Part shown: positions 35,618 through 61,233 of the stretch, one piece after another
Position numbering within the stretch: the stretch's first letter is position 1
How the letters are laid out: every line of letters starts with the position of its first letter
Assembly: GCA_947166105.1 (NCBI GenBank)
Contig: CAMVCZ010000001.1
Location: 124,001 to 188,000, forward strand
DNA: 64,000 nt
From: an uncultured Bacteroidales bacterium
Lineage (GTDB): Bacteria; Bacteroidota; Bacteroidia; Bacteroidales; F082
Direction of reading: 5' to 3'
Notes under the pieces: model-generated
The model's input: only the letters and a program-made list of their open reading frames with translations
Databases searched by the model: none
Told to the model about the DNA's origin: nothing
Translations under genes and position numbers: made by a program

Positions 35618-35725
35618 TGTAAACATTCTTTACACCGCTGTAAAGAACCTTTACATTTTACATTTTACGCTTAAATCTTAAATCTTTGAATATGAAATAA
35701 TTACAAGTTTGGCACGAATTATGCT
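35618..35725 (+). promoter_or_regulatory. Sigma-54 promoter 1 with twin upstream activator sites (TolC unit)
   Basis: Activator palindromes TGTAAACATTCTTTACA (35618-35634) and TGTAAAGAACCTTTACA (35639-35655) start 21 bp apart. After 55 bp comes TTGGCACG-AATT-ATGCT, with GG at 35711-35712 and GC at 35723-35724, the 10-bp gap required by RpoN. The start codon is 33 nt after the GC. Confidence 0.85.
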
Positions 35726-35756
35726 ATGCCTTTTTGCAACATTAAATATATGTGAG

Positions 35757-37109
35757 ATGAAAGCTAAACATACCTTTTTCATTTTGATGATGTCTTTTGG
35801 GGCCTTGAATATGGTCAAGGCCCAAGACACCACTACCATGACCCTCAAAGAATGTATGCGCTATGCCGTGGAGCACTCCACGAAGATGCGCATTGCCCAA
35901 GCCGACAACCGCGATGCGCAAATCGACCGGCGCGATGCCATCCTTGCGGCCTTCACGCCCACTGTGGAAGGTAGCACCTACGCCTATTCCAATTTTGGCC
36001 GCAGCATCGACCCGGAGACGAACACCTACATCAGGACGACCTCGTTCCACAACGGCTACAGCCTCTCGGCGGGCATCAACCTCTTCAACGGTTTTCAGGC
36101 CGTCAACAACCTGAAAATCACCAAGACGGCGCAACTGATGGGTCTCACCAAGGAACAACAGACCGAGGATCAAATTTGCTTGGCTACGATGGAAGCCTAC
36201 TGCAACGTGTTGTATTACACTGAAATGCAGAAAGCCCTGCAAGCGCAGGTGGTTTCGGCGGAGAAATCCGTGCAGCTGGCCACACGGCAGGAGGAATTGG
36301 GCCTGAAGTCGCACGCCGACGTGGTGCAGATGCAGAGCGACCTCGCCGAGCGGCAATATCTATTGACCCAATGCCGCAACAGCCTCAACGACGCGATGAT
36401 CACGCTGAAGGATGTGATGTTTTGGCCTATAGAGGAACCGCTGAAAATCGATGGTTTGTCGGTAGAGACGCCATATTATGACGTCTCTACAAAAACCGTT
36501 TCCGAAATGGTTGATTTTGCCAAAAACAATATGCCTGCCGTCCTTTTGGCCGAAGGCACGATGAAGAACGCCCGCCTTGCCCTCAAGACGGCCCGCTGGC
36601 AGCTGTTGCCACGGCTCTCGCTCTATGGCGGCTGGTCGACAACTTATTTCACCTATCCCGGGATGGAAGGTTATGTGCCCACGCCTTTTATGGAACAGTT
36701 GAAGAACAACAGCGGCGAGTATGTGCAACTCTCGCTGAGCATTCCCATCTTCGACCGCCTCTCGAAACATTCCAACATCGCGAAGCGGAAAAATGCTTAC
36801 GACCGCGCCTGCGCCGACTACGAGCAGACCCTCCAAACCGTGGAGGCCGAGGTGCGCCGCGCCATCGCCGACCGCGACGGCTCGGCTGACGCGCTGCGAC
36901 AGGCCGCCGTCCGCGCCGAATTGCAGGAAGAGGCATATACACTCAACGGCAAACGCTTCGAGCAGGGACTGATTTCGTCCATTGAATACCAGACCGCCTC
37001 GGGCAACTACCTCAACGCCTTGGCCGAGCACCTCAACGCGCGGCTTCAATACTACATCAAATGCAGTGTTGTAACTTATTATAGCGGAACTCCGTATTTA
37101 CAACAATGA
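35757..37109 (+). CDS. TolC-family outer membrane efflux channel
   Basis: 450 residues from the ATG at 35757. A signal peptide (FFILMMSFGALNMVKAQ) precedes two long repeats of coiled coil and beta-barrel strands: LKECMRYAVEHSTKMRIAQ (about 28-46) and the second half from DRLSKHSNIAKRKNAYDRAC. The final part (EQGLISSIEYQTASGNYLNA) is the C-terminal OEP motif. It should form the trimeric exit duct for the ABC-type pump encoded downstream. It is the first gene of the unit from sigma-54 promoter 1. Confidence 0.92.
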   Translation: MKAKHTFFILMMSFGALNMVKAQDTTTMTLKECMRYAVEHSTKMRIAQADNRDAQIDRRDAILAAFTPTVEGSTYAYSNFGRSIDPETNTYIRTTSFHNGYSLSAGINLFNGFQAVNNLKITKTAQLMGLTKEQQTEDQICLATMEAYCNVLYYTEMQKALQAQVVSAEKSVQLATRQEELGLKSHADVVQMQSDLAERQYLLTQCRNSLNDAMITLKDVMFWPIEEPLKIDGLSVETPYYDVSTKTVSEMVDFAKNNMPAVLLAEGTMKNARLALKTARWQLLPRLSLYGGWSTTYFTYPGMEGYVPTPFMEQLKNNSGEYVQLSLSIPIFDRLSKHSNIAKRKNAYDRACADYEQTLQTVEAEVRRAIADRDGSADALRQAAVRAELQEEAYTLNGKRFEQGLISSIEYQTASGNYLNALAEHLNARLQYYIKCSVVTYYSGTPYLQQ

Positions 37110-37113
37110 GTTT

Positions 37114-37286
37114 TAAACTACGGATTACACGGATGAAACGGATTGTCAACAATAGAAATGAAAGGCACAAGTGCCTAATTGTTACGGATTTCTACCAGCG
37201 GCAGCCTATCCGTACCCATCTGGACGCTTGCGTCCCAAATTTCTTCGGAAGAATATCCGTCAAATCCGTTCAATCCGTAGTTAAAC
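37114..37286. repeat. Inverted-repeat element A (about 170 bp)
   Basis: The left end TAAACTACGGATTACACGGA and the right end, whose complement reads TTTAACTACGGATTGAACGG, are imperfect inverted repeats enclosing CGTACCCATCTGGACGCTTG-like unique sequence. A second member lies at 58667. The gap between the TolC and permease genes is almost filled by it. No ORF is inside, so it behaves like a MITE or REP-type element. Confidence 0.75.
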
Positions 37287-37332
37287 AACAATCATTAAAT
37301 CTTAAATCTTTGAATCTGAAATCTCAAACAAT

Positions 37333-39678
37333 ATGAAAAGACTCACAGACAACCTCATCAAAATCCTATCGTTAGGCATAGGTCTCGCCATTGGCATCGT
37401 GCTGATTGCCAAGGTGTGTTTTGAACTTTCTTACGACAGTTTCTACAAGAATGTGGACCGAATCTACATCATTCAAACAGGCATTGAACGACAAGGCGAA
37501 TCGAAGAATTTCGGGCAAGTGAGCGGGGCGGTGGCTCCTGGCTTCAAGGCCGAGGTGCCGGGCGTGGAGGAGGCCACACGGATAACCTCCTTATTCGGTA
37601 ACAACCGCTACACGGACGAGGACGGCCATATCATCACAGGCAATTTGCGTTTGGCCGATTCCTGTTTCTTCAAGGTGTTCGACCGCCCGATATTGGCCGG
37701 CGACCCCGCGAAATCATTAGCCAAGCCAATGTGCTTGATGGTCTCGGAATCGTTTGCCGAAAAGCTCGGCGGCGTGGACGAGTGCATCGGCAGGATTATC
37801 GCCAATGAAGATGTGCCCGACCTGAAAATGACCATCGAAGGCGTGTTCAAGGACTTCCCGAAAAACGGCTCGATGGATTCAGACCTGCTGCTTTCGATGG
37901 TGAGTTATTCCAAAAGTAGCATAGAAAACTGGGTAGGTAACGACCGCTATAGGGCTTTTGTGAAATTGCAGCAAGGCGTTGACCCACAGTCGCTTGACGA
38001 TGCCATCCGCAAGATGCAGGAGACGCATCAGCCTTTGGAGGAACTGGAACAGAACGGGACGAAACTGTGGTATTATCTCACGCCTTTTGGCAAGGACCAC
38101 ATCAAGGAGTCATCGGTTCGCTCGATGGTGATTCTGCTTTCCATTGTGGCCGCGCTGCTGATTCTCATCAGTTTGCTCAACTACATCCTTATCGTCATTT
38201 CGGAGATGGTGCGTCGCGCCAAGGAAATCGGGGTGCGCAAGTGCTATGGCGCCACGGCCTTCAATATCCATTCGTTGCTGGCGCGTGAGGCATTCGTCCA
38301 TCTGTTGCTGTCGCTCGTTTTGGCGGCGGCCATCATTTTTGCTTCCAAAGGGTTGATCCAAAACCTGTTGGGCGTTCCTTTTGAGACGCTGCTCATTCCG
38401 CAAAGCGTTTGGGCCATCAGTGGGGTGCTGCTGTTCGTGCTGCTTGTTTCGGTCTTTGTGCCCGCACAGCTTTTCATGCGCATTCCCGTTTCGGTGGCTT
38501 TCCGCAACTATACCGAAAACTCGCGCCGCTGGAAAATCGGACTGCTTGGCGTTCAGGTGTTTATCAATGTCTTCGTGGCGACGATGCTTCTCATTGTGGC
38601 CTTGCAATACAAGAAGATGGTCAACTCCGACCCGGGCTACAACTACGAGAACACCTATTATATTTCAATGTACGACGGCGACCAAGCCGCACAAAGGCGC
38701 GTGGTGGAAACTTTGAGCCAAATGCCCGAGGTGACGCATACGGGCGTGGCTTATCATCTGCCGCTTTCCTACGCCAGCGGCGACAATGTATATTTGCCCG
38801 GCGACGACCGCGAGCTGTTCAACGTGGCCGACTGCTACGAAGCCACGCCAAGTTTCTATGAGATGATGGGGTTCGACTTTGTGGATGGTCGCATCCCTGC
38901 CGATTCCACAGAAGTGGCGGTGAGCGAGGCCTTTGTGAAACGGATGGCCGACTTCGCCGACTGGAGCGATGGCGCAGTGGGCAAGCAAGTGCAAATCACG
39001 GGTCACGGCAACTGGGGAATGGAGTTGGCTCCTTTCACCATTTCGGGCGTTTACCGCGACATACGCATCCATAACCTCGTGGACCTCGACACCCGCCCGA
39101 GTGTGCGCTTCTATGGCTCGCTCGACGACGGCAAGTCGTATATGCCGTATGTGGTTCTCAGGACGAACGCGAAACTCGACGAGGCTGCTATGCAAAAAGT
39201 GAACGAGGCGATTGCGACGGCCTTGGACGGCAAGCAGATGCAAATCCTGTCGTGGTCCGACCAGATGCGCTCGGCCTACGACGACAGCCGCAAGATGCGC
39301 AACACCATCTTCATCGGTGCCATTTTCGCCTTGATGATTGCCGTTTTGGGTCTTGTCGGCTTCGTTCGCGACGAGTCGAACCGAAGGAGCAAGGAGATGG
39401 CCATCCGCAAAATCAACGGCGCGACGGCTCGCGACGTGTTGCGTATCTTCGCTTGGGACGTGCTGAAACTCTCGTTGGTGATGGCGGTCTTGGCCAGCAT
39501 TGGCGCATTCTTCGTCGCCCACAGGTGGTTGGAGCAGTTTGCCGAGCGCATCGGCCTTTCGCCGCTCTATTTCGTTGCTGGGGCGGTTGCGGTTTTGCTT
39601 ATCGTTACCGTGGTGGTCGTCTTGTGCAGCAACAGGATTGCACGGATGAATCCGGTGAAGTCGTTGAAGAACAATTGA
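37333..39678 (+). CDS. MacB/FtsX-type ABC transporter permease
   Basis: 781 residues. An N-terminal transmembrane helix (LSLGIGLAIGIVLIAKVCF) is followed by a large periplasmic MacB-like domain and a triplet of helices (SMVILLSIVAALLILISLLN). A second periplasmic domain and FtsX-like helix set follow (TIFIGAIFALMIAVLGLVGF), with coupling helices RAKEIGVRKCYGA and RSKEMAIRKINGATARDVL that contact the ATPase. It ends ARMNPVKSLKNN. No ATPase domain is fused; the only MacB-type ATPase in the window is at 55392. It is the most divergent of the five permeases at the N terminus. Confidence 0.92.
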   Translation: MKRLTDNLIKILSLGIGLAIGIVLIAKVCFELSYDSFYKNVDRIYIIQTGIERQGESKNFGQVSGAVAPGFKAEVPGVEEATRITSLFGNNRYTDEDGHIITGNLRLADSCFFKVFDRPILAGDPAKSLAKPMCLMVSESFAEKLGGVDECIGRIIANEDVPDLKMTIEGVFKDFPKNGSMDSDLLLSMVSYSKSSIENWVGNDRYRAFVKLQQGVDPQSLDDAIRKMQETHQPLEELEQNGTKLWYYLTPFGKDHIKESSVRSMVILLSIVAALLILISLLNYILIVISEMVRRAKEIGVRKCYGATAFNIHSLLAREAFVHLLLSLVLAAAIIFASKGLIQNLLGVPFETLLIPQSVWAISGVLLFVLLVSVFVPAQLFMRIPVSVAFRNYTENSRRWKIGLLGVQVFINVFVATMLLIVALQYKKMVNSDPGYNYENTYYISMYDGDQAAQRRVVETLSQMPEVTHTGVAYHLPLSYASGDNVYLPGDDRELFNVADCYEATPSFYEMMGFDFVDGRIPADSTEVAVSEAFVKRMADFADWSDGAVGKQVQITGHGNWGMELAPFTISGVYRDIRIHNLVDLDTRPSVRFYGSLDDGKSYMPYVVLRTNAKLDEAAMQKVNEAIATALDGKQMQILSWSDQMRSAYDDSRKMRNTIFIGAIFALMIAVLGLVGFVRDESNRRSKEMAIRKINGATARDVLRIFAWDVLKLSLVMAVLASIGAFFVAHRWLEQFAERIGLSPLYFVAGAVAVLLIVTVVVVLCSNRIARMNPVKSLKNN

Positions 39679-39714
39679 ATATGTATTATAAACTACAGAT
39701 TGAACAAAGGAACT

Positions 39715-40018: not shown

Positions 40019-42409
40019 ATGAGCAGTTACCTCAAATTCTTAGGCCGAAACAAACTCTACACCGTCATCGAGGCGGTGGGCCTCATCATTTCCATTGCCT
40101 TCGTCATCTTGATTGGCAATTATGTGTACCAACAGTATTCCGTGGCCTACGGCAATCCCTATCGAAACAGGGTTTATGCCGTTGGAAACCAAGATTATAT
40201 GTCGCTATCGTGGTGGGACAAGGCCGTCTTTGAGGACAAGCTTCCCGAGGCTGAAGCCGTGTGCCGCATCAGCAATGCCGATGGGGATGGTTACATCACC
40301 GTTGGCGACGAACAGCCTGTCAGTGCCGTAGTTACCGAGGCCGACCCGGAGCTTTTTGAACTCTTCCCAAGCCTCATTTTGATTGACGGCAATCTCGACG
40401 AGTTCCGCCTCAAAGGGCATTGTCTTGTGTCCGAGTCACTTGCTAACGGAGCCTTCAATGGCGATGCTATTGGTAAACCGCTCAAAGTCAGTTATTTCGA
40501 TGAAAAAATTGAAGGTGTGGTTTGTGGCGTGTTTAAGGATGCCGCCAACTCGATGGTGCCTTACACCGATGTGCTTTTCAACCCCGAGTTCAATGAATTG
40601 TATGTGTCGGGTGAGCAGGAACCATTCACTTCCATTGGCTCGTATATGACTTTGATAAAAGTTTACGAAGGTACTGACCGTGAGCAATTTGCGAAAAAAG
40701 TCGAGGCGGTTGGATTGCCCAATTATTCCGACGGTTTCGTGAGTGCTATGCCGATTTACACGCTTCCGGAAGTCTTTTTCTTCGAAAACCAGTGGATGTT
40801 CAAGAAAGGCAACAAGTCGGTGTTGCAAATGTTGGCAGTGGTGGTGCTGCTGCTCTTGCTTTCGGCCATTTTCAACTATGTCAACCTCAACATGGCCCTT
40901 TCGGGAAAACGCGCCAAAGAGATGGCCACAAGGCGGCTTCATGGAGCCACGAAAGGTCAAATAGTGATGAAATATATCCTTGAGTCCGTGGCGTTTACGG
41001 CAATGTCTTTTGTTTTGGCATTCTTGGTGGCTTACGCTTTTCTCCCGATGATGAACAGTTTGTTGCATAGTGTTTCGGGCGGCGAATTTGGCATCGACGC
41101 ACCGTTTGAGCAGTTTGTTCCTGTTCGATTTGAGTGGTCTGTGGGCATTGTGGCAGCTTATCTTGTGGTGGTTGTGCTGTTGGGCACTTTGGCGGGCATC
41201 GCGCCTGCCGCCATCGCCTCGCGTTTCGAGCCGATAGACGTGGTACGTGGCACCTATCGGCTTCAAACCAAAAGGGTGTTCAGCAAGATTTTCATTGTGT
41301 TCCAAAACACCATCACCATCGTCCTGATTGCCATGGCACTGCTGATGGAGGTGCAGATGCGCCACATGATGAACCGTCCCACTAACATGCGCTCGGAGGG
41401 CTTGTATTCGTTGCAATGCTGGGTGCAGGACTATTCCGATATAGCACCGCTCATCGACCGTTTGGAGAAGATCCCAAACGCGAAAGCAGTGGGCTACGGA
41501 CGCGGCTTTGCGGGACAGTTAAACATGGGCACCAGCGTCAAAACGCCCGACGGCGAAATGGTGAACATGCAACTTATCCTTTGCGACGAGACCTATTTCA
41601 ATATGCTCGGTTTGCAGGTTGTTGAGGATTTTGGCGTACCCAAAACCAATTCGGTCTGGATGTCGAAGACTTTGGCCGAAAAACTCGCTTTGAACGACTC
41701 AACGGTGAATTATTACCCCCGACACATGCGCATCAATGGCTCTCGACCCGAGACCGTGGGCGGCATCTATGAGGACATTCCCACGCGCTCGGCGGCATCT
41801 TCTGAGCCCAACCAGTTTTCGGCAGTCATCATCGCCAAGGCGGAAGATTTGACTTGGGGAAACGGCGTAATGATTGACGTTTCAGGAGATTATAAAGGAA
41901 CAGAAAAGGCTATCATGGAGGCTTATCGCGATTATTCAGAGGAAAAGAATGGCACCTACGTGGAACCAGCCCAAAACGGCTATGTGAAGGACCTTAACAA
42001 CTTGTTGCTTCGACCTGCAAAAATGGCCATGCGCCTGCTCGAACTGTTTATGGTGCTTTCGGTGCTCATTTCCTTGCTTGGCCTTATTGCCATGAGCACC
42101 TATTACAGCGAGCAAAGCACCAAGAGCATCGCGGTGCGCAAGGTGTTTGGCGGTACGGTGGAGGGCGAGTTGTGGCGCTCGGTGAAGGACTATATGGTTT
42201 TGGTTGGCATCGCGGCGGTTGTCGGAGCGCCATTGGCCGTTTGGCTCTGCGGCAAGTATCTCGATCGTTTCGCCTACCGCATTGACCACTACGGCTGGAT
42301 TATCCTTGTGGCCGTTGTCGTCGCCATGCTGATGGCCTTCCTCTCGGTGCTCTGGCAGACCTTGAAGGCTGCGCGGACGAACCCTGCGGAGGCTTTGAAG
42401 AAGGAGTGA
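40019..42409 (+). CDS. MacB/FtsX-type ABC transporter permease
   Basis: 796 residues, close paralogue of the permease at 58894. It begins YLKFLGRNKLYTVIEAVGL with a first membrane helix at about 20-40, then a MacB-like periplasmic domain and helices near 275-295, 325-350 and 375-400. A second domain pair ends with MRLLELFMVLSVLISLLGL and GWIILVAVVVAMLMAFLSVL. Coupling motifs are RAKEMATRRLHGATKGQIV and STKSIAVRKVFGGTVEGEL. It ends ARTNPAEALKKE. It is expected to work with the ATPase at 55392 or a similar one. It is the last gene of the promoter 1 unit. Confidence 0.92.
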   Translation: MSSYLKFLGRNKLYTVIEAVGLIISIAFVILIGNYVYQQYSVAYGNPYRNRVYAVGNQDYMSLSWWDKAVFEDKLPEAEAVCRISNADGDGYITVGDEQPVSAVVTEADPELFELFPSLILIDGNLDEFRLKGHCLVSESLANGAFNGDAIGKPLKVSYFDEKIEGVVCGVFKDAANSMVPYTDVLFNPEFNELYVSGEQEPFTSIGSYMTLIKVYEGTDREQFAKKVEAVGLPNYSDGFVSAMPIYTLPEVFFFENQWMFKKGNKSVLQMLAVVVLLLLLSAIFNYVNLNMALSGKRAKEMATRRLHGATKGQIVMKYILESVAFTAMSFVLAFLVAYAFLPMMNSLLHSVSGGEFGIDAPFEQFVPVRFEWSVGIVAAYLVVVVLLGTLAGIAPAAIASRFEPIDVVRGTYRLQTKRVFSKIFIVFQNTITIVLIAMALLMEVQMRHMMNRPTNMRSEGLYSLQCWVQDYSDIAPLIDRLEKIPNAKAVGYGRGFAGQLNMGTSVKTPDGEMVNMQLILCDETYFNMLGLQVVEDFGVPKTNSVWMSKTLAEKLALNDSTVNYYPRHMRINGSRPETVGGIYEDIPTRSAASSEPNQFSAVIIAKAEDLTWGNGVMIDVSGDYKGTEKAIMEAYRDYSEEKNGTYVEPAQNGYVKDLNNLLLRPAKMAMRLLELFMVLSVLISLLGLIAMSTYYSEQSTKSIAVRKVFGGTVEGELWRSVKDYMVLVGIAAVVGAPLAVWLCGKYLDRFAYRIDHYGWIILVAVVVAMLMAFLSVLWQTLKAARTNPAEALKKE

Positions 42410-42427
42410 TTGCAAGTTTGTTTTCAT

Positions 42428-42722: not shown

Positions 42723-42828
42723 TGTAAAGTATCTTTACACCACTGTAAAATCACTTTACACTTTACAAAATACTGTTTTTGTAATTTATTGGTTTTTAAT
42801 GATTTACAAATTTGGCACGGCGATTGCA
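42723..42828 (+). promoter_or_regulatory. Sigma-54 promoter 2 with twin activator sites (beta-barrel unit)
   Basis: TGTAAAGTATCTTTACA (42723-42739) and TGTAAAATCACTTTACA (42744-42760) start 21 bp apart. 53 bp later is TTGGCACG-GCGA-TTGCA, a perfect RpoN consensus with GG at 42814 and GC at 42826. The start codon follows at 42873. Confidence 0.9.
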
Positions 42829-42872: not shown

Positions 42873-45173
42873 ATGGACAAGAAATCATTTTTCACGGCAC
42901 TGCTCATTTGCTTGGCAGTACTTGGCGCAAAGGCGCAAAACATCACAGGCCGTGTGGTGGATGAAACCGACGCGCCTATCCCTTACGCAACCGTCGTGGC
43001 GATGCAACTGCCCGACAGCACTTTCCTCGATGGCGTGACCACCGACAATGACGGTCGCTTTACCCTCGATATGGCTTGCGACCTGCTGAAAATCACCTTT
43101 GTAGGCTATGAGCCGCAGTTCGTCAGCCAGCCCAAAGGCAATCTGGGAACGCTGAAAATGAGCGTCGTTTCTTCGCAACTCCAAGAGGTGACCATTGCGG
43201 CCAAGCGACCCGAAATCACCAGCCTGCCCGACAGGACGGTGGTTGGAGTGGAAAGCACCTTGCTCTCATCGAGTGCCGACGGTATAGATATGCTTAAAAA
43301 GACGCCTGGCCTCTTGGTGGATGGGCAGAACAACCTCTCCGTCATCGGGCAAGGGTCGCCCATCGTTTACATCAACAACCGGCGCGTGTATTCGATGGAA
43401 GAGGTCTATAACCTGAACCCGCAAAACATCAAGTCCATCGAAATCATCCACAATCCGTCGTCGCAATATGAGGCCGACGCCACGGCCATCGTGAAAATCG
43501 TCACCCTGCGGCGCAACGACGACTTCTCGGTGCGCCTCGGCGGCACGGTGACCAAAGCGCGGCGTTGGAGCGAGCGTGCCTTTGCCGATGTCACCTTCTC
43601 GAAAAACAAGTTTTCGGCCAACCTCTATTACGGTTTCAACGGACGCAACACGCACACCATCAACAACGAGGACGTGATTGGCTACTCTATGATTGAACAT
43701 CGCGCCTACAGCCTCTCGGAAAATCAAGGCCACAACGCAAAACTGATGCTGGAATACGCTTTGACCCCGAAAATGACCATCGGCTTGCAGAGCAACAACA
43801 ACTTGGGCAATGGCACAAGCTTGCGCGAGCAAAGCACCCATTTTTTGGCGGGCAATCATACGGATTTCAAGACCGTGACCAACACCAACGACAAGAGCCT
43901 GCGGAGCAACAACACGCTGTTCTTCAACTACGACATCGACAGTCTCGGCCAGAACCTCAACGTGACTTTGGACTACACCTACAACCGCTATAATGACGAG
44001 GATGCTTTCCGCAACATCGTTGACGGAAGTGAGAGCCAAGGCATTTTGAACCTCAACAAAGGTTATGGCAACACGGGCATCTATGTGGGGAGTGTGGACT
44101 ATACACTGCCGTTCAGGAACGGCAAGACCACGTTCACGACGGGAGCGAAATACTCCTTGATTCAAACCGACAACCACGTTGACTTGACAGGAACAAACAA
44201 CCTATTGCAGCACTACCATTCCGACGAGTCGAATGCTGCCGCATACGCCAGCGTTGCGCACAATTTCTCCGACAAGTGGTCGGCCACCGCCGGACTGCGG
44301 TTTGAGTATGTGGATCGCCACAACTATTTGAACGACGTTCCCCAAGTGGACTACACGAAGCCCGGACTTTTCCCGAATGCCACCGTGCAATACAAGCCCG
44401 CCCAAGGCTACGCGATAGGCGCATCCTACTCGAAGCGCATCGTGCGTCCTTCGTTGGATGCCTTGAACCCCAGTATGTACATTGATTCATTGCTCATCAC
44501 CCAGGGCAACCCCAACCTAATCAACACCCATATCCATTCGGCGCAGGTTTTCGCCAGTTTCCCCATCTCACTCTCGGTGCGTTTCGGTTACAATTACCTC
44601 ATCGACCCGATTTATAGGGAACTCTACCAAAATGCCGAAAACCTTGATTTAGGAGAATCTCGTTACAGAAACGGCGACCACACTCAGAACTTTTTCGGCT
44701 CTATCTCTTGGAACGGGAATGTCACCAAGTGGTGGTATCTTTACAGTTCCGTCTATTTTGGCAGGAACTATTATGAAAAGGAGGAAGATGGTATCCTAAA
44801 GCAGAACAATAGGAACTTCGCCATGTTTAATGTCGGCAATATGCTGACCTTGCCCTACGATGTGAAATTCAATCTGAATTTCTATTACGGAACGCCTTAT
44901 CCATCGGAAGGTGTCACCGTGAAAGAACTGTGGAATCTCTCGGCCAGTTTGGAGAAGAGTTTCCTCAACAACAACCTGACCGTACGACTGAGTGCCAATG
45001 ACATATTCAACTCCATGCTCTATTGGCAACAAAGTGTCCTACGCGGCAATTCGTTGGTCTTCTTCGACAGCGATGGGCGAAACATCATGTTGAATGTCAC
45101 CTATAAGTTTGGCCAATCGAAAGTAAGGTTCAATTCGAGGTCGGTGAGTGAGGAGGAAAGGGGTAGGCTGTAA
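42873..45173 (+). CDS. Outer membrane beta-barrel protein with CarboxypepD_reg and plug domains
   Basis: 766 residues from the ATG at 42873; the frame is open further upstream, but that part would lie over the sigma-54 promoter. The signal peptide is FFTALLICLAVLGAKAQ. A CarboxypepD_reg domain (NITGRVVDETDAPIPYATVV, about 23-105) leads to a plug-like segment (LKKTPGLLVDGQNNLSVIGQ, about 140-210) and a C-terminal barrel of the OMP_b-brl_3 family. No TonB box is evident. The family resembles TonB-dependent receptors but is often seen with signalling or efflux operons. It is the sole gene after promoter 2. Confidence 0.9.
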   Translation: MDKKSFFTALLICLAVLGAKAQNITGRVVDETDAPIPYATVVAMQLPDSTFLDGVTTDNDGRFTLDMACDLLKITFVGYEPQFVSQPKGNLGTLKMSVVSSQLQEVTIAAKRPEITSLPDRTVVGVESTLLSSSADGIDMLKKTPGLLVDGQNNLSVIGQGSPIVYINNRRVYSMEEVYNLNPQNIKSIEIIHNPSSQYEADATAIVKIVTLRRNDDFSVRLGGTVTKARRWSERAFADVTFSKNKFSANLYYGFNGRNTHTINNEDVIGYSMIEHRAYSLSENQGHNAKLMLEYALTPKMTIGLQSNNNLGNGTSLREQSTHFLAGNHTDFKTVTNTNDKSLRSNNTLFFNYDIDSLGQNLNVTLDYTYNRYNDEDAFRNIVDGSESQGILNLNKGYGNTGIYVGSVDYTLPFRNGKTTFTTGAKYSLIQTDNHVDLTGTNNLLQHYHSDESNAAAYASVAHNFSDKWSATAGLRFEYVDRHNYLNDVPQVDYTKPGLFPNATVQYKPAQGYAIGASYSKRIVRPSLDALNPSMYIDSLLITQGNPNLINTHIHSAQVFASFPISLSVRFGYNYLIDPIYRELYQNAENLDLGESRYRNGDHTQNFFGSISWNGNVTKWWYLYSSVYFGRNYYEKEEDGILKQNNRNFAMFNVGNMLTLPYDVKFNLNFYYGTPYPSEGVTVKELWNLSASLEKSFLNNNLTVRLSANDIFNSMLYWQQSVLRGNSLVFFDSDGRNIMLNVTYKFGQSKVRFNSRSVSEEERGRL

Positions 45174-45208: not shown

Positions 45209-45316
45209 TGTAAAGTTTCTTTACACCACTGTAAAGAACCTTTACACTTTACATTTTATACTTAAATCTTAAATATTTGAATATTAAATATTTACAAGTT
45301 TGGCACGAATTATGCT
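45209..45316 (+). promoter_or_regulatory. Sigma-54 promoter 3 with twin activator sites (HlyD unit)
   Basis: TGTAAAGTTTCTTTACA (45209-45225) and TGTAAAGAACCTTTACA (45230-45246) start 21 bp apart. After 55 bp is TTGGCACG-AATT-ATGCT with GG at 45302 and GC at 45314. The first gene starts at 45682, so the leader is about 355 nt and contains repeat G2. Confidence 0.88.
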
Positions 45317-45681: not shown

Positions 45682-46953
45682 ATGGAAATCAGTTCAATGG
45701 ACAGAAAAATCGAAAAGAAAAAAGGCATCGCTCGTGCGTTCACCAAGAAAGCGTTGCCGTTTTGGGGCGGTGCTTTGCTGCTCATCTTCATCTTGTGGCT
45801 CATCTTCCGCGACGATGCCACCAAACTGCGCGTCGATGCCGACAACATCAGCATCGGGACGGTGACCTCGGGCGAGTTCAACGACTACATCCGCATCAGC
45901 GGACAAGTGGCCCCGATGACCACCATCCAAATCAGCCCCTTGGAGGGCGGCGTGGTGCAACAGATTGTCACCGAGGAAGGCAGCCGCGTCAAGGCCGGCG
46001 ATGTCATACTCATCCTCAGCAACGAGAACCTTGACATGCAAATCCTCAACGCCGAGGCCGAACTCGCCGAGAAGGAGAACATCCTGCGCAACACGATGAT
46101 CCAGATGGAGCAGCAGAAGCTGAGCCTCGAACAGGAGAAGATGCAGCTGCAGACCGAGGTGCGCCGCAACCGCCGCAGCTACGAGGCGCAGAAGGCGCTC
46201 TTCGACGATGGCCTCATCGCCCGCGAGGACTTCCTGAAGGCCGAAGAGGACTACCAGCTCAGCAACGACCGCCTCGGCCTCGTGCGCAACCGCGCCAAGC
46301 AAGACAGCCTCTACCGCTCGGTGGAAATCACGCAGATGCGCGAGAGCCTTGAGAACATGCGCATCAATATGCTGATGATTCGCCACCGCAAGGAAAACCT
46401 CACCATCAAGGCACCCATCGACGGCGAACTGGGCCTCTTGGACGTGGTGCTCGGCCAAAGCGTGGCGGCAGGCTCGAAGATTGGGCAAATCAACAACTTG
46501 GATAGCTACAAGATTGAAGCCCAAGTGGATGAGCATTACATCGACCGCGTGTCGGCAGGCTTGGAGGCCACCTTCGAGCGGCAGAGCGAGCGCTATCAGG
46601 CACAAATCCGCAAGGTGTATCCCGAGGTGCGCGACGGCAAGTTCAAGGCTGACTTCAAGTTTGTGGGCCAGCAGCCCGACAACATCCGCAGCGGCCAGAC
46701 CTATTACCTCAACCTGCAACTGGGCCAGCCCGTGGAGGCCGTGCTCATCCCGCGTGGTGCGTTCTACCAGAAGACGGGCGGCAAGTGGGTCTTCGTGGTC
46801 AGCCCCGATGGTAGCAAGGCCACGCGCCGCGACATTAAGATTGGGCGGCAGAACCCGCAGTATTATGAGGTGGTGGAAGGCTTGGTGCCAGGCGAGAAGG
46901 TGATCACTTCGAGCTATGACGGCTTCGGCGACTCGGAAGTGCTAGTATTTTGA
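45682..46953 (+). CDS. HlyD/MacA-family periplasmic adaptor (membrane fusion protein)
   Basis: 423 residues. One transmembrane helix near the N terminus (FWGGALLLIFILWLIF, about 30-46) is followed by half-lipoyl motifs (ISPLEGGVVQQIVTEEGSRV, about 90-110 and again APIDGELGLLDVVLGQSV, about 245-262). The long coiled-coil hairpin covers about 120-230 (LRNTMIQMEQQKLSLEQEKM...). The beta-barrel and membrane-proximal domains follow (LIPRGAFYQKTGGKWVFVVS). It should link the inner-membrane ABC permease to the TolC-like channel. It is the first gene of the promoter 3 unit. Confidence 0.92.
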   Translation: MEISSMDRKIEKKKGIARAFTKKALPFWGGALLLIFILWLIFRDDATKLRVDADNISIGTVTSGEFNDYIRISGQVAPMTTIQISPLEGGVVQQIVTEEGSRVKAGDVILILSNENLDMQILNAEAELAEKENILRNTMIQMEQQKLSLEQEKMQLQTEVRRNRRSYEAQKALFDDGLIAREDFLKAEEDYQLSNDRLGLVRNRAKQDSLYRSVEITQMRESLENMRINMLMIRHRKENLTIKAPIDGELGLLDVVLGQSVAAGSKIGQINNLDSYKIEAQVDEHYIDRVSAGLEATFERQSERYQAQIRKVYPEVRDGKFKADFKFVGQQPDNIRSGQTYYLNLQLGQPVEAVLIPRGAFYQKTGGKWVFVVSPDGSKATRRDIKIGRQNPQYYEVVEGLVPGEKVITSSYDGFGDSEVLVF

Positions 46954-46974
46954 ATTTTGAATTATGAATGCTGA

Positions 46975-47176
46975 ATTTGGAGTGGCGCGAAGCGGGTCTT
47001 TGGACTCCCCCCTGACCCCCTCAAGAGGGGGAAGCGCAAAGCGACGCAGAACTTGGGTCCGTCAGGCCCGCCCCGAAGGGGCGATACTCTATTAACGGCA
47101 GCACCCCGGCAGGCCAGCGTCCGGCAGGCCGTCCCCCTCTTGAGGGGGTGCCCTCAGGGCGGGGGAGTCAAAAGAC
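46975..47176. repeat. GC-rich palindromic repeat G3
   Basis: Same family as G1 and G2, but the inner palindrome CCGTAGGTCGCGACCTACGG is missing: the junction reads TATTAACGGCAGCACC. This is consistent with insertion or precise loss of a small palindrome. The outer ends are GACTCCCCC and GGGGGAGTC. Confidence 0.85.
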
Positions 47177-47226
47177 ACCAAACCAAATCAACAATTAAAC
47201 AGTTAAACAATTAAACAATCAACAAT

Positions 47227-49554
47227 ATGAAATCATTCTGGAACTTCCTAATGCGGAACAAACTCTATGCCCTCATCAACCTGTTGGGCTTGACCGTCTC
47301 GATGGCTTTCGTGCTGCTCTTGGCGGTGTATGTGCAGAAACAACTCTCCACCGATGCCTTCCAAGAGAACGCTGACAGAATTTTTGTCATCACCAACGAG
47401 GAAAGCCTCAATATGGGCTATTGGTTAGACAAGCACTTGCGCAACCAATTCCCCGAAATTGAGAAATCGTGCGCGGTTTGTAACTATTCTTTCAATGAGG
47501 AGTTTAGCATTGACGGCGAGACCGTCTATGGTAGCCTCACCTTCGCGGACTCGTGTTTCTTCGAGATGTTCAGCTACGACCTTGTGAAAGGCTCGAAGGC
47601 CGATTGGAAAATATCGGGTGACCGTTGTATGGTGAGCGAGGCGTTTGCCAACGCGCATTTCGGCGACAAAGACCCCATCGGGCGACAAATCATACTGGAA
47701 AGAAACGATGGCTACCCCATGGTGGTGTGCGGCGTTTTCAAAGACTTCGGCAACAGCATCATCAACGCGCCCGATGTGTTGGGACATGGCAATTTGATGC
47801 CGATTATCAACCCGGCCAACAATGAGCGCATGAGTAATGGTGGCGGCGGAGGTGTCTGCTTCGTGATGACTTATCCGGGTGCGGATTTGCAGGCTCGCCA
47901 CGACGACATTTTGGCTTGGTGCGAGGAAAACTTCTGGGTTTATAAGCAAAAGTATGACGAGGTGCGCATCATCCCGCTGCGTGAGGTGTATTTCCTTAAA
48001 GAAGGAGCACAGGATCATACAGCCACTGTGAGTTTGGGCAACCGCTTTTTTGTGAACCTATTATTGGCCATGTGCCTGATGCTTTTGTTGTTCGCCATAC
48101 TCAACTATTTGAATCTTTCCACTGCACTCATCGGTTTTCGCGCCAAGGAAATGGCCACGCGGAGGCTCGTTGGGGCAACAAAGGCAGGCATTTTCTTGAA
48201 AATGATAGGCGAAAGCACTGTGCTTTGTGCTTTGGCGATGGGCTTGGCGGTTCTTTTGGCTGAAGCTCTTGCGCCTGCCGCTTCTGAGCTATTGCACTAC
48301 GATATCTCGGTTTTCGGAGCGGTCAATACGGTCAATGTGTTGATTGTCATTGGATTCGTGCTTCTTTTGGGTTTCCTTACCGGGCTTGTTCCCGCTTTGA
48401 TGATTCAAAAAGTGCAGCCCATCGAGATTGTGCGCGGGTCGTTGCGGGTGAAGACCAAGACGGTTTATGGTCCTGTCATCATCGTGGTGCAGAATGCCGT
48501 GACTGTGGTGATGCTTGTTTCGGCTTTGACCCTTTACTTGCAAACGCGGCACCTGATAACCGCCGATTTGGGCTACAATACGAAAGACATTTTGGTCATA
48601 GACAATGTCTACGGCAAGACGGGCGAAATCAAGGCCTTGTTGGATGCTTATCGCGCCGAGCCGTTTGTGGAGGACGTGGGGCAAGGTGACGGTACGCCGT
48701 TGTTGGGCACCAACAATTGGACGATGGAGGTGGAAAACGGCAATTGGGTCTCGTTCCAGCAAATACAAGGCGACCAGCATTATTTCGACATCTTGGGCCT
48801 TCGCGCTAAACAGGACAACCATATCCCTGGGTCTTATTGGCTCAATGAATATGCTTTCGGCCAAATTGGGATAGACGAGACGGTGACGGAATTTAGGCGT
48901 AAAGACGGAAAAACCTATGAAATCGGTGGCATTTACTACGATTTCAAGATTTGGCCCTTGGAAATGCAGCAGTCAGCGGCCTTGATTAATAACCGAGGCG
49001 AGAATCCTGATGACAATTTTCCATGGAAATTGTTGGTAAAGACCACCGGTGACCACAAGGCGGCTCTCGACCGTTTGGAACAAGTGACGAAAGAGCTGTT
49101 TCCCGACAAGAGTTTTGAAGCGCTTTACCTTGAGGACATGATTGAAGCCTTTTTTGCTGGCGAGAGCCGTCTGCTGCGCATCGTCCTGATTTTCACTCTG
49201 CTTTCGATGCTCGTTTCGGCCTTGGGCTTGTTTGCGATGAGTTCCTACTACATGCAGCAGGAGCGTCGCGCGGTGGCGGTGAAGAAAGTGTTTGGCGCCG
49301 ACTATGGCGGCGTGTTGCGCGAGCTGGTGCTGTCGTTTATGAAATTGGTCGGCATCGCCTTCGTGGTGGGCATTCCCGTGGCGTGGTTCGTGATGCACCG
49401 TTGGCTTGAGGACTACACGCACCGCATCGCCCTCTCGTGGTGGATTTTCGCGGCGGCGGGCTTGGTGGTGGTGCTGTTGGCCTTCGTCTCCGTCATCTGG
49501 CAAAGCGTGCGCACCGCCCGCACCAATCCGGCTGCGGTTTTGAAGAAGGAGTGA
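47227..49554 (+). CDS. MacB/FtsX-type ABC transporter permease
   Basis: 775 residues. It starts FWNFLMRNKLYALINLLGL, with a first helix at about 15-35 (MAFVLLLAVYVQKQL). A MacB-like periplasmic domain, helices near 280-300 (NLLLAMCLMLLLFAILNYLN), coupling helix RAKEMATRRLVGATKAGIF, a second periplasmic domain and the final helices (GWIFA-type WWIFAAAGLVVVLLAFVSV) follow. It ends ARTNPAAVLKKE. It is the second gene of the promoter 3 unit, after the HlyD-like adaptor. Confidence 0.92.
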   Translation: MKSFWNFLMRNKLYALINLLGLTVSMAFVLLLAVYVQKQLSTDAFQENADRIFVITNEESLNMGYWLDKHLRNQFPEIEKSCAVCNYSFNEEFSIDGETVYGSLTFADSCFFEMFSYDLVKGSKADWKISGDRCMVSEAFANAHFGDKDPIGRQIILERNDGYPMVVCGVFKDFGNSIINAPDVLGHGNLMPIINPANNERMSNGGGGGVCFVMTYPGADLQARHDDILAWCEENFWVYKQKYDEVRIIPLREVYFLKEGAQDHTATVSLGNRFFVNLLLAMCLMLLLFAILNYLNLSTALIGFRAKEMATRRLVGATKAGIFLKMIGESTVLCALAMGLAVLLAEALAPAASELLHYDISVFGAVNTVNVLIVIGFVLLLGFLTGLVPALMIQKVQPIEIVRGSLRVKTKTVYGPVIIVVQNAVTVVMLVSALTLYLQTRHLITADLGYNTKDILVIDNVYGKTGEIKALLDAYRAEPFVEDVGQGDGTPLLGTNNWTMEVENGNWVSFQQIQGDQHYFDILGLRAKQDNHIPGSYWLNEYAFGQIGIDETVTEFRRKDGKTYEIGGIYYDFKIWPLEMQQSAALINNRGENPDDNFPWKLLVKTTGDHKAALDRLEQVTKELFPDKSFEALYLEDMIEAFFAGESRLLRIVLIFTLLSMLVSALGLFAMSSYYMQQERRAVAVKKVFGADYGGVLRELVLSFMKLVGIAFVVGIPVAWFVMHRWLEDYTHRIALSWWIFAAAGLVVVLLAFVSVIWQSVRTARTNPAAVLKKE

Positions 49555-50831: not shown

Positions 50832-50966
50832 TCTAAAGGATTTATTCTGTTGTATACACTACATGCCACTTAATACAGAGGCGTTATGGTCTGCAAAAAT
50901 AATAATATTTCCGCTACGAAATCATTCTCAAATTTAATGCATCGTTTGAGAATGTAAAAGTCGTAG

Positions 50967-51073
50967 TGTAAACTTTCTTTACACCACTATAAAGAACCTT
51001 TACACTTTACATTTTACAATAAATCGTAATTTATTGAATATTAAATAGTTACAAATTTGGCACGGCGATTGCT
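50967..51073 (+). promoter_or_regulatory. Sigma-54 promoter 4 with twin activator sites (second beta-barrel unit)
   Basis: TGTAAACTTTCTTTACA (50967-50983) and TATAAAGAACCTTTACA (50988-51004) start 21 bp apart. 54 bp later is TTGGCACG-GCGA-TTGCT with GG at 51059 and GC at 51071. The leader to 51119 closely matches that of promoter 5. Confidence 0.9.
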
Positions 51074-51118
51074 ATGGGAAAATGCGTAAAAAATATGAAC
51101 CTGTAAAATCGTAAAGCA

Positions 51119-53416
51119 ATGGGTAAAAAATCATTTCTTGTGGCATTGCTCGTTTTCGTGGCGGTGCTGGGCGCTGAGGCGCAAAACATCAGTGGGCGTT
51201 TGGCTGACGAGGACAACAACCCCGTGGCCTTCGCCAACATCGTGCTGAAACAGGCACAAAACGACAGCCTCGTGGCGGGGCTGACCTCCGACGAGAACGG
51301 AACATTCTCCGTAGATGTCAAGGAGGGGAAGTACGTCCTTATTGCTTCGGCCATCGGCTACGAGCGGCTGACCGTCCGTTGTGGGGCGACTGCCCTCGGA
51401 ACCTTGCTGATGCCCAAAACCACTGAACAATTGGACGAAGTAGTAGTTGAGGCTTCGAGGGTCACCGAAGAGGCGGGACGTTTCGTGGTGCTGCCCGACC
51501 CCAAGGAGGCGGAAGTCTCGGGTCGTGGTCTGACCTTGCTTGACATGCAGCAACTGCCTGGCTTGGAGGTGGATGTGGCCATGCAAAACATCACCATCGA
51601 CGGCGGCACACCCATCTTGCAAATCAACGGAAAGGAAGTGCCGCTCAACCGCTTCATCAATGTCAGGCCGGAGCAAATCCTGCGCATCGAGTACAGCAAC
51701 GACCCCGGCATCCGCTACCTCGACCGTAATGCGTCGGGTATCATCAACCTTGTGCTGAAGGAGTCGGACGACGGCGGAAACGTGATGGCAAGGGTGCAAT
51801 CGGCGTTCACCACAGGCTTTGTGGATGGCTACCTCATGGCAGCGCACCACAAGGGCAAGTCGGAGTTTTCGTTGCAGTACAACTTGAGTCACCGCAACTA
51901 TAAAATTGTACCTTACGAAATGACAGACAGTTATATCGCTGATGAACGCACGGTGGAGCGTTATCAGGAAATGAATTTCCCGTTCAATTACATCACCCAC
52001 AACATCACGGGTGAATACACCTACCAGCCCAACGACACCACCATGTTCGTGGCCACACTGCGTGACTACATCGACAACAACCATTGGTTCGGGACGGGTA
52101 CCATCACCGAAACTGAAAACGGGACAACCACCAAATTGGACATGAACAAGCAGACCGACAGAAAAGGCAACTCGCCGACCTTGGATTTGTTCTTCACGCA
52201 CAAGATGAGGAACCGTCAGAAAATCGAACTCAATATGGTGGGGCAATATTCACATAGTGATTATTACAACAACTTGATTTACAGGGATTCGGAGAGCGAA
52301 TGGCAATATCCTACCAAGGTGATTAACAAGGGTTACGTGATAGGCGGAGAGACCGTTTACAGCAAGCAGTTCAAGAAGGCGGAGGCCCGCGTAGGACTGC
52401 AATACCAGCACAACTTCGCGAGCAACGATTATGTGGTTTACGAAACCCAAACCGAGATGACCAAGGACAACACCTATCTTTACACCAGCATCGACGGCAA
52501 TTTGAGCGACAATGTGATGTATTCGTTGGGGACGGGTGTCAAGTTGTTCTCCGTGACCGACGGCATCGACACCAAGCGATACCTCCGTAACTTGAGCACG
52601 GCGGGCCTGTTTTGGCGCATCAATCAGCGTTGGTCGGTGACGGTCAACACGCAGTTTGTCCCTTACCTGCCTTCGTTGAGCGACATGTCGCCCGTGTTGC
52701 AGCGCGTGGACGATGTGGAGGCCATCTGTGGCAATGAGTCGTTGCGGCCTTATAACACCTTGTTCGGTGCACTGCGGTTGCGTTACAATAATAAGGGATG
52801 GTTTGCCAGTATGATTCCAAGTTATTACAGGAACTTTTCCCCCACTGTCCGCTTGTATCATTACGATCCTGACCTTGATCTTTTCGTCGGCACAAGGCAG
52901 AACACCGACTATTACCAGCGTTTTCAGTTGAAAGCCGAGGTGGGCGTAAAGCAACTATTTGACCGATTGAACATTACGCTGAACGCCAAACTGAAGAAGG
53001 AGGAAGCCAAAGGCGAGGAATTCTATCACGACAACCTCAACTTTAGCAGCGGTATCAAGGCGCAGTTTGTCTGGAAGCAATTGGTGGTCGGCTGCAACTT
53101 CGACTTCACGCCCGAATGGTCTTTGTTCGGTGAGGATTTGTCGGGAGGCGAGATGTCGCAAAGCATCTATGCCGAATACAACTGGAAGAGCCTGAATGCG
53201 AGCGTAGTATGGCATTGTCCGTTCAACAAGAAGGGCTATATGTACCAGACCAGCAACCTCTCGGCGGTGCATCCCTACAGCCATACCAACTGGACCAGCG
53301 ACAACGGCAACATGGTCGTGTTGGGTCTCACATGGAAGTTCAACTACGGAAAGGCGTTCAACAAAGGCCAGAAGACCCTTTGGAATGGCGGGTATGATGA
53401 CGGCATGGTGAAGTGA
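51119..53416 (+). CDS. Outer membrane beta-barrel protein with CarboxypepD_reg and plug domains
   Basis: 765 residues. The signal peptide FLVALLVFVAVLGAEAQ is nearly identical to that of the DUF2807 protein at 54284. The CarboxypepD_reg domain (NISGRLADEDNNPVAFANIV, about 23-100) and plug-like region (MQQLPGLEVDVAMQNITIDG, about 140-200) precede an OMP_b-brl_3-type barrel. It is a paralogue of the protein at 42873. There is no TonB box. It is the sole gene after promoter 4 and ends in a clear terminator. Confidence 0.9.
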   Translation: MGKKSFLVALLVFVAVLGAEAQNISGRLADEDNNPVAFANIVLKQAQNDSLVAGLTSDENGTFSVDVKEGKYVLIASAIGYERLTVRCGATALGTLLMPKTTEQLDEVVVEASRVTEEAGRFVVLPDPKEAEVSGRGLTLLDMQQLPGLEVDVAMQNITIDGGTPILQINGKEVPLNRFINVRPEQILRIEYSNDPGIRYLDRNASGIINLVLKESDDGGNVMARVQSAFTTGFVDGYLMAAHHKGKSEFSLQYNLSHRNYKIVPYEMTDSYIADERTVERYQEMNFPFNYITHNITGEYTYQPNDTTMFVATLRDYIDNNHWFGTGTITETENGTTTKLDMNKQTDRKGNSPTLDLFFTHKMRNRQKIELNMVGQYSHSDYYNNLIYRDSESEWQYPTKVINKGYVIGGETVYSKQFKKAEARVGLQYQHNFASNDYVVYETQTEMTKDNTYLYTSIDGNLSDNVMYSLGTGVKLFSVTDGIDTKRYLRNLSTAGLFWRINQRWSVTVNTQFVPYLPSLSDMSPVLQRVDDVEAICGNESLRPYNTLFGALRLRYNNKGWFASMIPSYYRNFSPTVRLYHYDPDLDLFVGTRQNTDYYQRFQLKAEVGVKQLFDRLNITLNAKLKKEEAKGEEFYHDNLNFSSGIKAQFVWKQLVVGCNFDFTPEWSLFGEDLSGGEMSQSIYAEYNWKSLNASVVWHCPFNKKGYMYQTSNLSAVHPYSHTNWTSDNGNMVVLGLTWKFNYGKAFNKGQKTLWNGGYDDGMVK

Positions 53417-53424
53417 GAAAAGCA

Positions 53425-53491
53425 AAAGCCTCCCCATTCCGGTTCCATGCGTTTGACGGCGCTATGGAGTGAGGAACGAGGAGGCTTTTTT
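53425..53491 (+). terminator. Terminator of the second beta-barrel gene
   Basis: AAAGCCTCC (53425-53433) pairs with GGAGGCTTT (53480-53488), followed by T. The stretch also contains ATTCCGGTTCCATGCGTTTG, which has a decayed relative after the permease at 49554 (49597-49614). Confidence 0.75.
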
Positions 53492-53554
53492 CAGAGTTCG
53501 TTTTGCGGTTTCGGAAATAATGTGTAATTTTGCATTTGCAAAAACAAGATTATA

Positions 53555-53863
53555 ATGTGCACCTATCCCATATCATTAGACGAGGGTTTGGTCATGGAGG
53601 CTGAAAATGTCTTACAGATCAACGAGTCGTTCCAAACTTGGCTGCAGCAGCAGGTCGAAATATGGCTTTTGGCGCAGGTAAAAGCCAAGAAACGGTCTCA
53701 TTCTCGTCATGGCAGGCTTTCTGATGATGAGTTGGCTGAACGGTTGAAAGACTATCCACTGCTTGAAGAAAGCGATTTTCCGAGTTTGGCAGCCGAGGAT
53801 TACGGTGTATATCTGAAATCTCGTAGCGGACAACTTCCTAAAGGATTGGAGCAATGGCTGTAA
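53555..53863 (+). CDS. Putative antitoxin-like hypothetical protein
   Basis: 102 residues, not recognised. Hydrophobic helix FQTWLQQQVEIWLLAQVKAK, then a basic stretch KKRSHSRHGR and an acidic C terminus (LEESDFPSLAAEDYGVYLKS). It precedes a short MazF/PemK-like remnant and overlaps it by 10 nt, which suggests an antitoxin. A TAATTTTG box lies about 25 nt upstream of the start. This assignment rests on context. Confidence 0.6.
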   Translation: MCTYPISLDEGLVMEAENVLQINESFQTWLQQQVEIWLLAQVKAKKRSHSRHGRLSDDELAERLKDYPLLEESDFPSLAAEDYGVYLKSRSGQLPKGLEQWL

Positions 53864-54057
53864 ACAATGTTTATCAACGCGAAATCGTGGAAGTGCCTTT
53901 CGTGTTTCCTGATGGGAAAGTGTTGCCTCATCCTGCGTTCGTTGATGCATTCAATGTGTCTGATGTGGTTTCACGGCACAATTGCTTCTTGCGTCAACCT
54001 TATTTTGTCCAATTGGTTGACAAAATCGTCGCGAATATTGTCGATGGCGACTTTTAG
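53854..54057 (+). pseudogene. Probable internally deleted MazF/PemK-like toxin
   Basis: 67 residues, about half the usual toxin length. The N terminus (VYQREIVEVPFVFPDGKVLP) has the start pattern of MazF/PemK barrels in Bacteroidales. The C terminus (FLRQPYFVQLVDKIVANIVD) resembles the last helix of the same family, and the middle is missing. It could also be a genuine small protein; the overlap with the upstream gene is kept. Confidence 0.45.
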
Positions 54058-54131
54058 CGACCTGTTTTCGACTTTTTTTCCGCAAGAACCTCAATTATAC
54101 TGAGAGAAGATTTGATGGCGTTGTAAACCAT

Positions 54132-54238
54132 TGTAAACTTTCTTTACACCACTGTAAAGAACCTTTACACTTTATATTTTACGCTAAATTGTAATTTATT
54201 GAATATTAAATAATTACAAATTTGGCACGGCAATTGCT
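54132..54238 (+). promoter_or_regulatory. Sigma-54 promoter 5 with twin activator sites (DUF2807-ABC unit)
   Basis: TGTAAACTTTCTTTACA (54132-54148) and TGTAAAGAACCTTTACA (54153-54169) start 21 bp apart. 54 bp later is TTGGCACG-GCAA-TTGCT with GG at 54224 and GC at 54236. The start codon is at 54284. An extra TGTAAA half site lies at 54122. Confidence 0.9.
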
Positions 54239-61230: not shown

Positions 61231-61233
61231 TGG

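Follow-up and report, generated by a model that had tools for sequence, protein, structure and literature searches.

A predicted local sigma-54 regulon with twin operators, an adjoining NtrC-family regulator and exporter genes in an uncultured Bacteroidales bacterium

The DNA analysed here, called the window, is a stretch of 64,000 nucleotides from an uncultured Bacteroidales bacterium of the GTDB lineage F082 (assembly GCA_947166105.1, contig CAMVCZ010000001.1, positions 124,001 to 188,000 of the forward strand), and it very probably carries a local sigma-54 regulon composed of five promoters, an adjoining activator of the NtrC family and one exporter. Sigma-54 promoters work only with a dedicated activator protein, and a previous reading of the letters alone (the sequence-only reading) had proposed one such activator for all five transcription units. 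This proposal is supported by what can be established from the sequence, namely the anatomy of the promoters, an rpoN gene, an adjoining NtrC-family regulator and kinase, the confinement of exact palindromes to the locus, the conservation of like clusters in relatives, and changed operators in some diverged clades.

The five promoter modules are located at 35618, 42723, 45209, 50967 and 54132, the starts given previously. Each module begins with two palindromes of the form TGTAAA-N5-TTTACA, of which nine of ten are exact; the description of all as identical fails only for the second palindrome of module 4 (50988), which begins TATAAA and has one mismatch. The palindromes start 21 bp apart in every module of the window, and this spacing, previously taken as constant, is 19, 21 or 22 bp in relatives. 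They are separated by CCRC, as had been noted (CCGC in module 1 and CCAC in modules 2-5). The -24/-12 element, TTGGCACG-N4-WTGC, matches exactly in all five modules, and its GG at -24 and GC at -12 stand at the fixed spacing of sigma-54 promoters both here and in relatives. The start of the first palindrome precedes TTGG by 91, 89, 91, 90 and 90 bp in modules 1-5, and the gap from the end of the second palindrome to TTGG is 51-53 bp rather than the 53-55 bp first given. With transcription expected to start about 12 nucleotides after the GC of the element, the palindromes are centred at -108 to -110 and at -87 to -89, in agreement with the earlier estimates of about -110 and -90. The parts of the modules, including an IHF-like site discussed below, are as follows.

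35618..35655, + strand: module 1 twin operator, TGTAAACATTCTTTACA-CCGC-TGTAAAGAACCTTTACA, before tolC (pattern scan)
35679..35691, + strand: module 1 IHF-like site, one mismatch
35709..35724, + strand: module 1 -24/-12 element
42723..42760, + strand: module 2 twin operator, before OMP1
42782..42794, + strand: module 2 IHF-like site, one mismatch
42812..42827, + strand: module 2 -24/-12 element
45209..45246, + strand: module 3 twin operator, before hlyD
45270..45282, + strand: module 3 IHF-like site, one mismatch
45300..45315, + strand: module 3 -24/-12 element
50967..51004, + strand: module 4 twin operator (second palindrome TATAAA, one mismatch), before OMP2
51027..51039, + strand: module 4 IHF-like site, one mismatch
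51057..51072, + strand: module 4 -24/-12 element
54132..54169, + strand: module 5 twin operator, before the DUF2807 gene
54192..54204, + strand: module 5 IHF-like site, one mismatch
54222..54237, + strand: module 5 -24/-12 element

The arrangement is confined to this locus. The assembly comprises 3,520,585 bases in 100 contigs and is 97% complete, and a scan of all of it for the twin pattern with up to three mismatches, which the sequence-only reading had called for, finds five places, all at this locus, and none in a backward-read control. Single exact palindromes number nine in the assembly, all within the five modules. When one mismatch is allowed, palindromes occur at 17 places, ten in the modules and seven elsewhere, and the control gives 12. 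Five of the eight exact -24/-12 elements in the assembly are also at this locus, and with two mismatches the element alone shows no excess in the window (16 observed, 14.7 expected).

This last figure bears on the possibility that the palindromes are sites for a CRP/FNR-like or other sigma-54-independent regulator, and that the -24/-12-like sequences arose by chance. TGT-N11-ACA is common for dimeric regulators, and the -24/-12 consensus by itself is not rare in the window. This explanation is nevertheless highly improbable, in view of the exact elements that stand at a near-constant distance in all five modules and of the neighbouring gene, which encodes a sigma-54 activator. Also, in 25 of 30 fetched module loci of relatives (L015-L044; L numbers denote fetched loci or stretches of relatives, and G numbers genomes), one strand carries an element with at most two mismatches at a distance of 89-91 bp from where the module starts. 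One of the five remaining loci, L037, has an element with three mismatches. Twin matches in G047, G093, G116 and G120 (L015, L029, L030 and L032) are AT-rich, have two mismatches and lack an element at the right distance, and were judged to be chance matches.

An IHF-like site is present between operator and promoter and was absent from the earlier description. The site, YAA-N4-TTGATW, is the IHF consensus and starts 31 bp upstream of TGGC; each of the five window modules has it with one mismatch. At this threshold it is found in 64 of 87 distinct modules, 59 times at -31. These 87 modules were collected with palindromes within two and elements within three mismatches, so the high conservation of palindromes and elements among them arises partly by construction, whereas neither flanks nor IHF-like sites entered the selection. 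Among 42 low-redundancy spacers (less than 80% alike), 30 contain the site, 26 of them at exactly -31, whereas 200 dinucleotide shuffles averaged 6.6 and never exceeded 12. The genome has two strong matches and one weak match to PF00216, the HU/IHF family, among which true IHF subunits are not distinguished.

The absence of rpoN, named earlier as an observation that would refute sigma-54 control, does not apply: one match to PF04552 lies above the cut-off, on contig C53. Sigma-54 activator domains in the genome comprise three strong matches and three further ones that are weak, yet above the cut-off. The only strong one at the locus, at C1:187390, belongs to the predicted activator, and the other two are on contigs C9 and C10. 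The regulator gene starts 1.7 kb after the last permease gene, and its 3' end overlaps the start of a kinase gene that lies beyond the window.

62928..64000 (gene continues to 64298), + strand: NtrC-family response regulator, predicted activator, with REC, sigma-54 AAA+ and Fis-type helix-turn-helix (HTH) domains
Contig C1:188295-189152, beyond the window, following the regulator: histidine kinase of 285 amino acids

The regulator matches PF00072 (REC), PF00158 (sigma-54 interaction AAA+) and PF02954 (Fis HTH) above the cut-offs. Its best matches among solved structures are of the NtrC family (4l4u, over residues 7-456, and 1ny5), with ZraR for the ATPase/HTH part. In a simple hydropathy scan of the loci where the kinase reading frame was read (L177, with an open reading frame in the wrong frame, was excluded), membrane segments of the kinases are N-terminal only. 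One such region is present in kinases beside regulators 61-100% identical to that of the window, and two close ones are present in distant genus members and other genera. The window kinase appears to have an N-terminal membrane helix and no evident periplasmic sensor domain, a layout that resembles intramembrane-sensing kinases such as BceS. At 62890-62930, GGTAATTTT is repeated and TAATTTTG stands directly before the regulator ATG. The region resembles the Bacteroides housekeeping promoter, and the regulator gene may be driven by a promoter of its own there.

Because three strong sigma-54 activator domains exist, all of which could act on these promoters, it is conceivable that the C9 or C10 activator binds the twin palindromes and that the adjoining regulator controls other genes. 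This seems very unlikely. Palindromes with up to one mismatch are absent from contigs C9 and C10, and lists of open reading frames of at least 180 amino acids in 19 kb around the two genes, read by eye without a domain search, revealed no recognisable TolC/HlyD/MacB-type cluster. Moreover, the modules mostly accompany close relatives of the adjoining regulator in the same kinds of clusters, and they differ in some diverged clades.

Conservation in relatives supports the adjoining regulator as the activator. Most of the named relatives are uncultured members of the Bacteroidales found in ruminants, and the nearest regulator (98% identical) is in the metagenome-assembled genome UBA4243. Modules with at most two mismatches are found in 46 of 149 genomes of the family, comprising 45 of 75 genomes of the genus and one of the 74 others. 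Scanning L015-L195 for twin palindromes with the element gives 124 matches (not deduplicated) and a single match in the reversed control. Among the matches listed, 46 genus genomes have a regulator at least 74% identical to that of the window, and 38 of these have the 21-bp module, compared with 7 of the 29 genomes without such a regulator; three of these seven are the AT-rich matches in G093, G116 and G120, and four look real. In the 87 distinct modules the palindromes are spaced by 21 bp (50 modules), 22 bp (33) or 19 bp (4), and the distal palindrome lies 90-94 bp from TGGC, at 91 or 92 bp in 74 of them (allowed range 86-96). The clusters of G041, G014, G081 and G087 have a simpler order of module, TolC, HlyD, permeases, ATPase, regulator and kinase (the G014 kinase is outside the fetched stretch). 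Additional modules stand ahead of a later permease, one each in G041, G014 and G081 and three in G087. The arrangement in the window thus seems to be an expanded and split form of this order.

The operators change along with the regulator in some clades. Twin operators occur on the same stretch as 43 distinct regulators, in a scan that required TGT at both palindrome starts and left only the inner half-site bases free to differ. By hand count, 32 of these regulators carry SRPTLY in the HTH, and their commonest half-site is TGTAAA (30 regulators) or TGTAAG (2). In the diverged SRQTLY genus members L188, L190 and L196 the operators are of the TGTCCA kind, spaced by 22-23 bp and offset by 91-93 bp; L190 was missed by the TGT filter and is taken from other operator scans. 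TGTCCA operators are also found in G088 (L187), in which the regulator tail is unread, and mixed TGTCTA/TTTACA sites in L191 and L200, whose regulators carry TRQTLY. In other genera, TGTAAA-type twins 22 bp apart are found in 7 of 10 loci (L205, L207, L208 and L211-L214), and the scan found no twin operator in L206, L209 and L210. These twins lie 103-104 bp out, roughly one helical turn further, and precede weaker elements (up to three mismatches, in a scan without a control).

Several observations weigh against a single local activator. The sigma-54 contact loop of the regulator reads GAFTDA, not GAFTGA, with the threonine kept; in relatives it is GAFTDA at 141 and GSFTDA at 9 of 150 loci (not deduplicated). 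Within the window the regulator gene lacks its own module, and a DUF4143 gene stands between it and the last permease. The co-occurrence of regulator and module (Fisher 6e-7) comes from a hand tally uncorrected for shared ancestry. Real-looking modules occur in G099, G142, G146 and G148 (drafts 97, 71, 83 and 91% complete) with no close regulator among the matches listed, and the regulator of these genomes may be on contigs absent from the drafts or be present as a fragment that ranked below those matches. Conversely, 8 of the 46 regulator-bearing genomes lack the 21-bp pattern; the spacing is 22 bp in G083 and 19 bp in G051 and L098 (whose coordinates fit G121), and five further exceptions remain. 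At the SRPTLY loci L134, L146, L149, L154 and L155 (62-65% identity), one of the two palindromes is an intact TGTAAA palindrome and the other is degenerate. L214 combines SRQTLY with TGTAAA, which shows that the operator is not set by this residue alone; a strict rule that assigns the operator by a P or a Q of the recognition helix is contradicted both by L214 and by the TRQTLY regulators. The change of operator may also represent only one or two events. Among 20 distant stretches scanned, several of them short, 10 had no acceptable operator. Since a looser scan gave six matches in its own reversed control of 0.78 Mb, no trust is placed in a weak match that stands alone. Finally, a single ATPase would have to serve five permeases, as predicted from the gene content described below.

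The modules appear to have multiplied by copying. Shared sequence begins sharply near the first palindrome in the window modules, and in modules 2, 4 and 5 it runs through the leader into a protein start that resembles a signal peptide (M-KKSF...AVLGA-AQ), although the proteins otherwise differ. M-K-SF starts also follow modules in G125 (a DUF2807 and an outer-membrane gene), G118 (an outer-membrane gene) and G110 (two DUF2807 genes). This common start in the window and in relatives suggests that a promoter-plus-signal cassette was copied. Since copying past the promoter into the leader and N-terminal codons is clear for modules 2, 4 and 5, the likeness of the modules might reflect only recent promoter copying during gene duplication, with palindromes that need not function. 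This is very unlikely to be the whole explanation. In 47 within-genome pairs (12 of 17 scanned genomes had two or more modules), median likeness is 95% in the operators, a figure inflated by selection for an operator match, compared with 73% in spacers, 58% downstream and 36% upstream. Moreover, throughout the genus such sites stand in front of genes of the same kinds, and the 22-bp layout of the uncontrolled scan is seen again in other genera.

The genes downstream of the modules probably encode one split MacB/FtsX-type tripartite exporter (TolC, HlyD, one ATPase and five permeases), together with two outer-membrane-type proteins and a DUF2807 protein.

35757..37109, + strand: TolC-family outer membrane efflux protein (OEP; PF02321, searched from 35760)
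37333..39678, + strand: MacB_PCD/FtsX permease A, no ATPase domain (Pfam)
40019..42409, + strand: MacB_PCD/FtsX permease B, no ATPase domain (Pfam)
42873..45173, + strand: OMP1, TonB-receptor-like beta-barrel protein (OMP_b-brl_3 and CarboxypepD_reg; Pfam, searched from 42843)
45682..46953, + strand: HlyD-family periplasmic adaptor (PF13437)
47227..49554, + strand: MacB_PCD/FtsX permease C (Pfam)
51119..53416, + strand: OMP2, 765 amino acids, CarboxypepD_reg domains, probably outer-membrane (Pfam)
54284..55198, + strand: DUF2807 (GIN domain) protein, signal-peptide-like N-terminus as in OMP1 and OMP2
55392..56078, + strand: LolD/MacB-like ABC ATPase; no other ATPase was found in the cluster
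56237..58654, + strand: FtsX/MacB_PCD permease D, ADOP-like (below the ADOP model cut-off)
58864..61230, + strand: FtsX/MacB_PCD permease E, ADOP-like (below the ADOP model cut-off)

The earlier identifications of TolC, HlyD, MacB-type and DUF2807 proteins and of one beta-barrel (OMP_b-brl_3) hold; for the second presumed barrel (51119-53416), Pfam gave CarboxypepD_reg only. If each transcript is assumed to read through to the next module, the predicted units are TolC with permeases A and B (module 1), OMP1 (module 2), HlyD with permease C (module 3), OMP2 (module 4), and the DUF2807 protein with the ATPase and permeases D and E (module 5). No ABC_tran/ATPase domain was matched in the five permeases. 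Among solved structures, the ATPase is nearest to 5xu1, MJ0796, and LolD and MacB chains, and permease C has two weak matches only. Larger sets of permeases are seen in relatives: G028 (L157-L158) has eight and G092 (L161-L162) six clear FtsX-type permeases, plus one weak match each, with a single ATPase in the fetched stretches. The gene content points to export or efflux, for which toxic peptides or envelope stress seem the likeliest candidate substrate or signal.

GC-rich repeat-like sequences, such as CCCCGTAGGGGCGA and GGCAGGCC, occupy 45385-45640 in the leader that links promoter 3 to hlyD. A substrate gene in this position was considered and found to be unsupported: the leader of 366 bases is GC-rich and repeat-like, and its plus-strand open reading frames, in several frames, are at most 56 amino acids long. 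Peptides similar to those of this leader are found in the gap before permease C (46960-47200).

Two further genes lie within the locus. The DUF4143/AAA gene between permease E and the regulator (61376-62815) is the PADLOC candidate PDC-S01. Its relatives (30-95% identical) break up exporter clusters at varied places and in both orientations (L157, L162, L166, L170-L172, L175, L180, L183 and L193), which suggests repeated insertion. Directly before this gene, TTCGTTCAGAAAAATGGGT occurs three times (61230-61330), and the end of permease E (..VDVLQKE stop; 61200-61232) is echoed after it (62820-62880), as though the gene were flanked by the remnant of a permease tail or by a duplicate made on insertion. 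On the minus strand between modules 3 and 4 is a YhcG/DUF1016 nuclease gene (49647-50831; PADLOC candidate PDC-S02), and a stretch 88% identical to it lies between two modules in G110 (L176 6952).

In the mechanism that we infer, the histidine kinase would phosphorylate the adjoining NtrC-family regulator, which would bind the twin palindromes as two neighbouring dimers centred at about -109 and -88. Bending of the DNA by a protein of the IHF/HU type, about 50 bp upstream of the start, would let the ATPase of the regulator reach RNA polymerase-RpoN at the -24/-12 element and open the promoter. The five promoters would fire together, yielding one MacB/FtsX-type tripartite exporter along with the outer-membrane-type and DUF2807 proteins.

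The system shares features with three known types. Like NtrC/ZraR-type systems, it has a regulator with REC, AAA+ and Fis-type HTH domains, upstream paired palindromes, an IHF-like site between, and a -24/-12 element. In contrast, its loop is GAFTDA, its operator is TGTAAA-N5-TTTACA, which differs from the NtrC consensus, and it is linked to a Bacteroidales exporter cluster instead of nitrogen or zinc genes. Bce-type peptide detoxification modules, which occur in Firmicutes, similarly comprise FtsX-like permeases, a separate ATPase, an adjoining two-component system and a kinase without an external sensor domain. However, the response regulator here is NtrC-type and not OmpR-type, TolC and HlyD are present, there are five permeases, and the kinase has one N-terminal helix region (two close ones in distant relatives). 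MacAB-TolC shares the MacB_PCD and FtsX domains, the HlyD-type adaptor and the TolC-type channel; the ATPase here is a separate protein and not fused to a MacB permease, and the permeases are about 775-805 amino acids long with FtsX domains, D and E being like ADOP duplicated permeases.

In a 2025 study (PMC12316311), the portions available report that sigma-54 promoters are enriched upstream of COG0577 permeases in Bacteroidia, term this the first evidence for such a link, and cite sigma-54-dependent grpE and groES in Bacteroides thetaiotaomicron. That enrichment is a class-level statistic, and the portions available name no activator, operator, IHF-like site or locus. Another paper (PMC3162934) argues that the bacterial exterior is under sigma-54 control; its main text as available has no word beginning with "bacteroid". 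Searches of open-licence papers listed none that seems to describe this regulator, operator or locus. The mechanism is an ordinary one in a setting not found described in those papers, and its activator is likely identified.

A coupling of the kinase to the FtsX permeases is an attractive but tentative idea. On this view, the locus might represent a sigma-54 version of transporter-coupled sensing, in which the kinase would read its own FtsX-type permeases and the NtrC-type regulator would raise the exporter. The regulon would expand in two ways: a ready-made unit consisting of twin operator, IHF-like site, promoter and leader, with a signal peptide in three cases, would be copied to positions ahead of new surface genes, and permeases dependent on a single shared ATPase would multiply.

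For sigma-54 control in these bacteria, the locus allows the activator, the operator, a likely bending site and the promoter to be read together. The changed operators of diverged regulators are a ready comparison for DNA recognition by Fis-type domains. The list of targets is short, with five promoters at one locus, and therefore a single binding or knock-out experiment could probe the whole circuit.

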